From the NCBI RefSeq assembly GCF_030691015.1, contig NZ_JAUYFF010000010.1, positions 62,001 to 126,000 of the forward strand: 64,000 nucleotides of DNA, in the 5' to 3' direction. Shown piece after piece: positions 45,769-48,440 of the stretch. Within the stretch, counting starts at the first letter, position 1; every line of letters begins with the position of its first letter. A program made the translations under genes and the position numbers. The notes beneath the pieces are model-generated. The model was not told the origin of the DNA. It saw only the letters and a list, made by a program, of their open reading frames with translations, and did not search any database. Source of the DNA: Sulfuricurvum sp. (GTDB lineage Bacteria > Campylobacterota > Campylobacteria > Campylobacterales > Sulfurimonadaceae).

Positions 45769-46392
45769 ATGGCAATAGCGGTTCGTAAAGCATCCGAGGG
45801 AGATATTGACATCATTGCCCAAGCATTGCTGGAGAGTTCGAGAGGAGGTAAAAGAATAGGATTGTTTGATCTTGTGTTCAATACCTCCGAAAATGAGGTG
45901 TTACTCTCTCTCCTCAAACGTTTAGCCCTCACAAGCACCAAGAGCTATTGCCATTTTTCCAATTTCTTTGTTGCCGTCGAGAATGGAACAACACTCGGAA
46001 CGATCTGCGGCTATGAACCCCGTATAGCAACCCATGAAATTTTTTCCAAAGCACTCGAAGAGATCGGATTTGATGAAACCTACCACGAACGGATCGCCGC
46101 ATATCTGCTGTGTGAGGGTGATGTTGACAATAAAACATTTGTTTTGGATTTTATGTTGGTCAAGCCGGAGTTTAAAAGTATCGATGTCTACAAAGAGCTG
46201 ATCGGAAAAAGTATGCTCACTGCACGTCTTAAAGGGTATCGTAAAGTCCAAACGCCCGTCGAAATAGGTTCAGTAGAGAATGAGCTCATATACAAAAAAC
46301 TAGGATTTGAAGTAATTGACGAAAAACGGAGCGAATATTACAAAGAACAATTCGATCGTTCCGGAATTATGCGCCTTCAAATGATTTTATAA
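45769..46392 (+). CDS. GNAT-family N-acetyltransferase
   Basis: A 207-residue protein with the GNAT layout: N-terminal IAVRKASEGDIDIIAQALLES, a central strand FVAVENGTTLGTICGYE, FVLDFMLVKPEFKSIDVYKELIGKSM for the motif A region, and ENELIYKKLGFEVIDEKRSEYY near the end. The acetyl-CoA loop is not a clean Q/R-x-x-G-x-G/A, so catalysis is not assured. The start ATG 45769 follows a GAGG site; TTG 45751 is less likely. The antiporter's coding sequence follows in the same frame after its TAA. Confidence 0.82.
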   Translation: MAIAVRKASEGDIDIIAQALLESSRGGKRIGLFDLVFNTSENEVLLSLLKRLALTSTKSYCHFSNFFVAVENGTTLGTICGYEPRIATHEIFSKALEEIGFDETYHERIAAYLLCEGDVDNKTFVLDFMLVKPEFKSIDVYKELIGKSMLTARLKGYRKVQTPVEIGSVENELIYKKLGFEVIDEKRSEYYKEQFDRSGIMRLQMIL

Positions 46393-46401
46393 GGATCTGC
46401 T

Positions 46402-47775
46402 ATCGAATACGGTCTATTAGGGTTACTCCCGCCCCTCATTGCTATTCTTCTCGCTTTTTTTAGCCGTTCCGTCTTTATTGCGTTAGCCATGGCCGTCGTT
46501 GTCGGTGAATTTATTATTGCCGATTTCAGCCCCCTTAGTGCACTAATGCTCATGATAGAACGTTTTATTTCCCTCTTAAGTGAAGGATGGGTACTCAAAA
46601 CCCTCGCGTTTGCCATTATGGTCGGTTCGGTTATGACCCTCATCGAACGAAGTGGAGGAGTAAACGGTCTGGTACACGAACTGAGCGTCAAACGCTCTCT
46701 CGTTAAAAGCAAACGGGGCGCCCTGATGCCCAGCTTTATCGCGGGAATTATTGTCTTTATCGAATCGTCCATCACATCACTCGTTGCAGGAGCTATCGGA
46801 CGCCCTTTTTGTGATCGATACGGTATCAGTCGTGCCAAACTTGCCTTTGTATGCGATTCCACTTCCGCTCCCGTCTGCTCCCTTATTCCGCTGAACGGTT
46901 GGGGAGCGCTGTTACTGGGGCTTATCGGTGGACAAATCACGGCAGGATTGATTGCGGGTGAGAGTGCGACGTGGCTACTTCAATCAATCGCATTTAACTT
47001 TTACGCATTTATGGCCCTGCTCGTCACCTTTATCGCAATATGGTATGAGATTGATATAGGTCCTATGCGCCATGCTGCCATTACACCTCCCGACATCGAA
47101 TGCGAAGATGCCAAAGGGGGTATTGGGCTCTTTTTATGGCCGATGGTATGGATGATCGGGGGAGTTATCGCGTTTATGGTTATTACCGGAAATGGCAATA
47201 TCTTTAAAGGCTCCGGTTCCACCTCTATTTTTTATACCCTTCTCATTACCTTAGGTTTGATGTTGGTATATTATCGACTCAAAAATGTCCTCACCATCTC
47301 TGATTTTTTTGATGCGGCATGGAGTGGTGCACGTTCTATGACGCCCATTGCCCTTATTCTCCTTTTTGCTTTTGCAATCGGCGGGGTGAGTTCAGATATG
47401 CAAGTGGGACAATACTTAGCTTCGTTTATCGGAGATTACCTTCCATCAGAGTATCTAGCAGGTGCTATTTTTGTTCTGGCGGCGATTATCGCCTTTGCGA
47501 CAGGGACGAGCTGGGGTACATTTAGTATTATGCTCCCCATCGCCATTCCTCTCGCCGTCGGTCTTGATGCTCCGATAGCTCTCGCTATGGGAGCGGCGAT
47601 ATCAGGCGGGGTCTTCGGAGATCACTGTTCACCCATCTCCGATACGACGATCATCTCTGCTATGGCAAGCGGATGCAGTGTCCAAGAACATACCAAAACC
47701 CAACTCCCTTATGCCCTGATCTCTGCAGGCTTCGCCTTTATACTCTTCATTATTTTTGGAATCGTCCTAACATGA
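46402..47775 (+). CDS. NhaC-family Na+/H+ antiporter, probable AUC start
   Basis: Polytopic antiporter of about 457 residues with about 11 membrane spans. The frame encodes the family N-terminus IEYGLLGLLPPLIAILLAFF right after the GNAT stop, but between that stop (46390-46392) and ATG 46489 there is no ATG, GTG or TTG in frame. ATC 46402 sits six bases after AAGGA (46391-46395) and is the likely start. ATG 46489 would remove the first conserved membrane helix and lacks a ribosome site. Later blocks include FAIMVGSVMTLIERSGGVNGL, CDSTSAPVCSLIPLNGWG, and GVFGDHCSPISDTTI. Coupled to the response regulator by ATGA. Confidence 0.85.
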   Translation: MEYGLLGLLPPLIAILLAFFSRSVFIALAMAVVVGEFIIADFSPLSALMLMIERFISLLSEGWVLKTLAFAIMVGSVMTLIERSGGVNGLVHELSVKRSLVKSKRGALMPSFIAGIIVFIESSITSLVAGAIGRPFCDRYGISRAKLAFVCDSTSAPVCSLIPLNGWGALLLGLIGGQITAGLIAGESATWLLQSIAFNFYAFMALLVTFIAIWYEIDIGPMRHAAITPPDIECEDAKGGIGLFLWPMVWMIGGVIAFMVITGNGNIFKGSGSTSIFYTLLITLGLMLVYYRLKNVLTISDFFDAAWSGARSMTPIALILLFAFAIGGVSSDMQVGQYLASFIGDYLPSEYLAGAIFVLAAIIAFATGTSWGTFSIMLPIAIPLAVGLDAPIALAMGAAISGGVFGDHCSPISDTTIISAMASGCSVQEHTKTQLPYALISAGFAFILFIIFGIVLT

Positions 47776-48440
47776 CAAAAGCTTCCCTTCTCCTCCTCGA
47801 AGACGATCCGAATCTCTCAGAAAGTGTCAGCGAATACCTTGAAAACTGCGGCTACAGCGTTACCTGTGTCTATGATGTCTCAGCGGCTGAAGATACCCTC
47901 TACGAGCGGAAATTTGATCTACTGCTTCTGGATGTCAATGTCCCAGGAGGAGACGGGTTCTCCCTCCTCAAAGCAAGCCGAAAAGAGGGAAATGTCACCC
48001 CCGCTATTTTTATTACCTCACGCAATTCGATGAAGGATGTCGAAGAGGGGTTTGAGAGCGGCGGGGATGATTATATCCGTAAACCCTTCGCACTCAAAGA
48101 ACTGCTTCTGCGGATTCAAACCATTCTAAAACGAAATTTTTATCACAATCCTACCGATGTTTTGAAGCTCGCAGAGGGGATTACCTATGATAGTGATAAT
48201 CAGGTGCTCCTCATAAACGGAGCAACTCAAAATCTCCAACTTAAAGAACATAAGCTCCTCAAACTCTTTATCCAACACCGCCATGAGCTCCTCTCCCATG
48301 AAATGATTTTGGAGCATCTGTGGGATTATGATGAAACACCAAGCGATGGAAGTTTGCGTACCTATATCAAAACACTCCGTAAACTTCTCGGAAAGGATTC
48401 CATTGTCAGCCACAAGCGCCTCGGGTATCAGTTTCGCTAA
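47772..48440 (+). CDS. OmpR-family response regulator
   Basis: A 222-residue two-component transcription regulator. Receiver domain (1-115) with acidic pair LEDD, phospho-acceptor Asp in LLLLDVNVPG (about 52), ITSRN and the Lys in IRKPF. C-terminal winged helix (about 130-222) with the OmpR pattern LKEHKLLKLFIQHRHELLSHEMILEHLWD and SDGSLRTYIKTLRKLLG. ATG 47772 overlaps the antiporter stop by four bases. The kinase gene starts inside its end. It may control the antiporter or envelope genes; inferred. Confidence 0.93.
   Translation: MTKASLLLLEDDPNLSESVSEYLENCGYSVTCVYDVSAAEDTLYERKFDLLLLDVNVPGGDGFSLLKASRKEGNVTPAIFITSRNSMKDVEEGFESGGDDYIRKPFALKELLLRIQTILKRNFYHNPTDVLKLAEGITYDSDNQVLLINGATQNLQLKEHKLLKLFIQHRHELLSHEMILEHLWDYDETPSDGSLRTYIKTLRKLLGKDSIVSHKRLGYQFR

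Follow-up and report, generated by a model that had tools for sequence, protein, structure and literature searches.

Evidence for AUA/AUC initiation of an NhaC-like antiporter gene retained across the family Sulfurimonadaceae

Well-supported examples of conserved non-canonical start codons are few outside infC. The infC gene starts with ATT in E. coli and with ATC in Streptomyces (PMC5472188), and with AUA in S. aureus (PMC13009471). The same study describes AUA and AUU starts in S. aureus that yield about 10-30% of AUG output, with a medium-dependent effect for ccpN, and an AUA start of ccpN that is conserved in both S. aureus and B. subtilis and lowers output. Streptomyces sigR has a conserved GTC start, and its repression by IF3 was shown by experiment (PMC5472188).

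Here we describe a sodium/proton antiporter gene of Sulfuricurvum sp., on contig C19 of genome G000, that almost certainly begins at the codon at position 46402 of the window (the whole stretch of 64,000 nucleotides that was analyzed), whatever the reason for that choice. It is probable, from the comparisons below, that this initiation occurs at AUC and has been kept by selection for weak initiation. The likeness to infC lies in a near-cognate AUN start under apparent selection; infC, however, encodes a factor that senses the codon, whereas the Sulfurimonadaceae gene encodes a transporter. The antiporter gene resembles ccpN in having AUA behind a clear Shine-Dalgarno sequence, conserved across genera, but ccpN encodes a transcription repressor in Firmicutes, and no mention of AUA/AUC interchange was found for it (PMC13009471). 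With sigR it shares a clade-conserved non-canonical start and an adjoining partner gene with a canonical start; sigR differs in its codon (GTC/GTT), its product (a sigma factor) and the experimental demonstration of IF3 control (PMC5472188). While conserved non-canonical starts are already known from these three genes, the antiporter is unusual as a transporter, in family-wide retention and in the exclusion of AUU. No family-wide transporter gene alternating between AUA and AUC starts was found in the open-access literature searched.

The antiporter gene occupies 46402..47775 on the plus strand (457 codons plus stop), and its frame closes at TGA 47773-47775. Directly upstream on the same strand is a GNAT-type acetyltransferase-like gene (45769..46392), a conserved neighbor, which ends in TAA at 46390-46392 and is followed in the same frame by GGA TCT GCT ATC(46402) GAA TAC GGT. 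The putative start codon is this ATC (AUC; 46402..46404, plus strand), whose homologous codon in the Sulfurimonadaceae is ATA or ATC. A Shine-Dalgarno motif, AAGGA (46391..46395, plus strand), overlaps the GNAT stop codon. The first in-frame ATG is codon 30 (46489..46491, plus strand), which is probably not the start and is the likely pick of an automatic gene caller. A preliminary description of the locus had reported that no ATG, GTG or TTG lies in frame between the GNAT stop (46390) and this ATG, that AAGGA stands six bases 5' of ATC 46402, and that the two genes share a frame; each of these observations was confirmed in the sequence.

That description called the product NhaC. The antiporter matched the Na_H_antiporter family PF03553, which holds NhaC and Tet(35), over its C-terminal two thirds (E=1.3e-48; 166 bits against a gathering cut-off of 23), and the name stands at family level. 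It does not stand at the level of the NhaC equivalog TIGR00931, for which the score was 48 bits against a cut-off of 370; the score for Tet(35) (NF000013) was likewise below cut-off, at 155 bits against 750. 'NhaC-like' appears to be the safer name. The GNAT label of the upstream gene is weak: PF13508 was matched at E=0.006 (17.4 bits against a cut-off of 27) and PF00583 at 13.8 bits against 20.7, both short of the Pfam gathering score for GNAT.

To place the start codon in its family, 30 Sulfuricurvum loci were aligned first and then loci from other genera of Sulfurimonadaceae, a family of sulfur-oxidizing bacteria, 117 species in all. The homologous start codon was ATA in 72 species, ATC in 30, GTG in 6, ATG in 5 and TTG in 4; ATA or ATC was thus present in 102/117 species and a canonical start in the other 15. 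At about 12 loci the local alignment stopped short of the first codon, and the start was set by eye to within 3-4 codons. Among the 92 ATA/ATC species aligned without such adjustment, 86 lacked any canonical codon in the stretch from the in-frame stop to the start. The ATG and TTG starts sit at the homologous codon, except in L107, where the start is one codon upstream. All six GTG starts belong to one genus (L087, L104, L209-L212) and lie a few codons upstream, overlapping the GNAT stop (GTGA). This genus showed no clear Shine-Dalgarno sequence. Several Sulfuricurvum genomes of good completeness (e.g. G045, G070, G076) gave no antiporter match.

Homologs from the order's other families begin with ATG at precisely the codon corresponding to 46402; one family is an exception, its start lying two codons upstream and being TTG or GTG (ATG in one case). 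The query of one order-level search, whose first 30 residues were in part a consensus-like substitute, was used solely to find loci. Among the PF03553 copies examined, the AUA/AUC start was confined to those of the Sulfurimonadaceae. The AUA/AUC of this family therefore occupies the AUG position of other families and has been kept there. The preliminary description had proposed AUC initiation and had taken ATG at this codon in relatives as a sign of error; since that ATG occurs mainly in other families, as a start, what was framed as a refutation becomes support, and AUC initiation at 46402 is strongly supported. Two features that mark a near-cognate start were both found in the antiporter, namely a conserved N-terminus without a canonical start and a near-cognate codon conserved across species.

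Alternative placements of the start were weighed against the pattern of coding constraint. The reading that ATC is a sequencing or assembly error of ATG draws on the rarity of the codon, but the same ATA/ATC recurs in separately assembled genomes of 102 species, with ATG at 5/117 within the family, and we consider an error vanishingly improbable. Together with constraint that sets in at this codon, the recurrence rules out chance or error on the comparative evidence. Across 29 relatives, antiporter codons 2-29 (46405..46488, plus strand; the N-terminal membrane helix and the start of the second) carried 352 synonymous and 118 non-synonymous changes, against 5 synonymous and 59 non-synonymous changes in the four codons upstream of 46402. 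Expressed per changed codon, 75% were synonymous in codons 2-29, where amino-acid identity across the genus was 85%, compared with 8% upstream of the start. By this measure antiporter coding constraint begins at codon 46402, and purifying selection acts on codons 2-29. A protein starting at ATG 46489, with the upstream stretch untranslated, would have the merit of using the first canonical codon in frame; it is nevertheless highly improbable given this constraint, and given that the codon corresponding to 46402 serves as an ATG start in other families. Moreover, 11/30 Sulfuricurvum species and 12/117 Sulfurimonadaceae species carry ATG at codon 30, and besides codon 30 no downstream canonical codon common to the family was found among the 117 species compared. 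The possibility of a 46489 start, raised in the preliminary description, is accordingly set aside. Such a start would also remove the first of two N-terminal helices predicted at residues 4-20 and 24-39, by a structure model of low overall confidence (mean pLDDT 44.7) that was used solely for placing these helices. Gene callers limited to ATG, GTG and TTG would cut the first membrane helix off these antiporters.

The GNAT gene lies directly upstream of the antiporter in nearly all members of the Sulfurimonadaceae, and two further explanations involve it. A GNAT-antiporter fusion, made by stop read-through or by frameshifting within GNAT, was suggested by the shared frame and 9-nt gap found in the source genome and most Sulfuricurvum. 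The distance from GNAT stop to antiporter start, however, ranges over 1-127 nt and all three frames (gaps outside the 9-nt arrangement being 1, 2, 3, 4, 8, 10, 11, 12, 21, 76, 78, 110 or 127 nt), a TAG stands immediately before the ATC in two Sulfuricurvum species (L018, L027), and one locus (L092) retains ATA with no GNAT gene within 300 bases upstream. A fusion is hardly credible on these observations and was rejected as a general mechanism; the start is independent of GNAT read-through. The weak start might instead serve mainly for translational coupling, with ribosomes that terminate on GNAT re-initiating at AUA/AUC to give a fixed low antiporter-to-GNAT ratio. Three features favor coupling: the GNAT stop is at most 12 nt away in most species, the Shine-Dalgarno sequence is weak in many Sulfurimonas whose gap is 1-2 nt, and the GTG lineage has its GTGA overlap. 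Yet the start type and Shine-Dalgarno sequence persist at loci with GNAT at a distance of 76-127 nt (L004, L008, L012, L016, L030), and L092 keeps its ATA with no GNAT just upstream. Coupling is unlikely to be the main reason for the weak start, and at gaps of 1-12 nt coupling to GNAT termination may play a part.

Weak initiation retained by selection is also consistent with the sites upstream of the start. AAGGA or a close variant was found 4-7 nt 5' of the ATA/ATC in Sulfuricurvum species, including those with the GNAT stop 76-127 nt away, and the duplex energy of the antiporter Shine-Dalgarno sequence was -6.0; across 179 genes of the contig the median was -5.4. A Shine-Dalgarno sequence of -3.5 kcal/mol or better was present in 69/102 ATA/ATC species compared with 1/15 species with a canonical start (p=3e-6, a value that ignores relatedness). 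The contrast was not significant on independent pairs or after phylogenetic correction, and with only 2-7 independent contrasts the pattern is suggestive. The combination of a strong site with a weak codon, or a weak site with a strong codon, suggests stabilizing selection for low output.

ATT was not used as a start in any of the 117 species, yet it was the most common of the Ile codons just downstream of the antiporter start (ATT 44%, ATC 30%, ATA 25%). A rough estimate from independent draws puts its absence by chance at 10^-23, which is overstated since the species are related. On a poorly resolved tree of about 95 columns, 13-14 switches between ATA and ATC were inferred, and none to ATT. 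Exclusion of AUU is left unexplained by weak initiation alone. A selective mechanism might prefer AUA/AUC over both AUU and AUG, with antiporter synthesis serving as a readout of one particular condition of the initiation apparatus (IF3, initiator tRNA or ribosome) and as a translational switch controlling sodium/proton homeostasis family-wide; we regard this as a rather improbable proposal. The family-wide interchange of AUA and AUC without AUU offers a natural experiment on near-cognate start function.

To consider how such a start could be read, we examined the initiation machinery. The genome has two ordinary initiator tRNA(CAT) genes, and a pattern search for an initiator tRNA with a changed anticodon returned these two CAT copies only. 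With no variant found, fMet-tRNA acting at a near-cognate codon would be the simplest reading. The initiator tRNA-Met(CAT) genes form a tandem pair (L176; G000:C12:84985-85156) beside a tRNA-Gln gene. In the mechanism we propose, ordinary initiator fMet-tRNA (anticodon CAU) would start the antiporter at AUC 46402, to which AAGGA overlapping the GNAT stop would guide the ribosome. Selection across the Sulfurimonadaceae would retain AUA/AUC instead of the AUG of other families, and the weak start would keep antiporter synthesis low, independently of the neighboring GNAT gene. Synthesis could then respond to the conditions of initiation, for instance to growth state or the level of IF3. The physiological reason for a weak start could be dosage, a response to IF3 or operon coupling; a low, adjustable amount of membrane antiporter is most likely what the start was kept for. 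This pattern yields a directly testable prediction on antiporter dosage control.

An autoregulatory link like that of infC was also considered and rejected. In the Sulfuricurvum genomes compared, infC apparently starts with a conserved TTG, not AUU, AUA or AUC (L171, G000:C4:533924-534133, minus strand, and 18 other Sulfuricurvum loci), and there is thus no evident network of IF3 autoregulation. Control of the antiporter start by IF3 is a tentative possibility, to which we give somewhat less than even weight.

To assess how special the antiporter is within its genome, the 250-kb contig was scanned against a close relative. Among 179 conserved genes, the antiporter was the only clear case of a conserved coding sequence without a credible canonical start. 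Several other apparent cases in the scan were rejected, being accounted for by canonical starts that had not been aligned or by non-coding DNA upstream that was identical. The downstream response regulator gene (47772..48440, plus strand) begins with an ATG that overlaps the antiporter stop (ATGA, 47772-47775), so the weak start could limit the response regulator as well. This overlap is present in most of the 30 Sulfuricurvum species and absent in the remainder.
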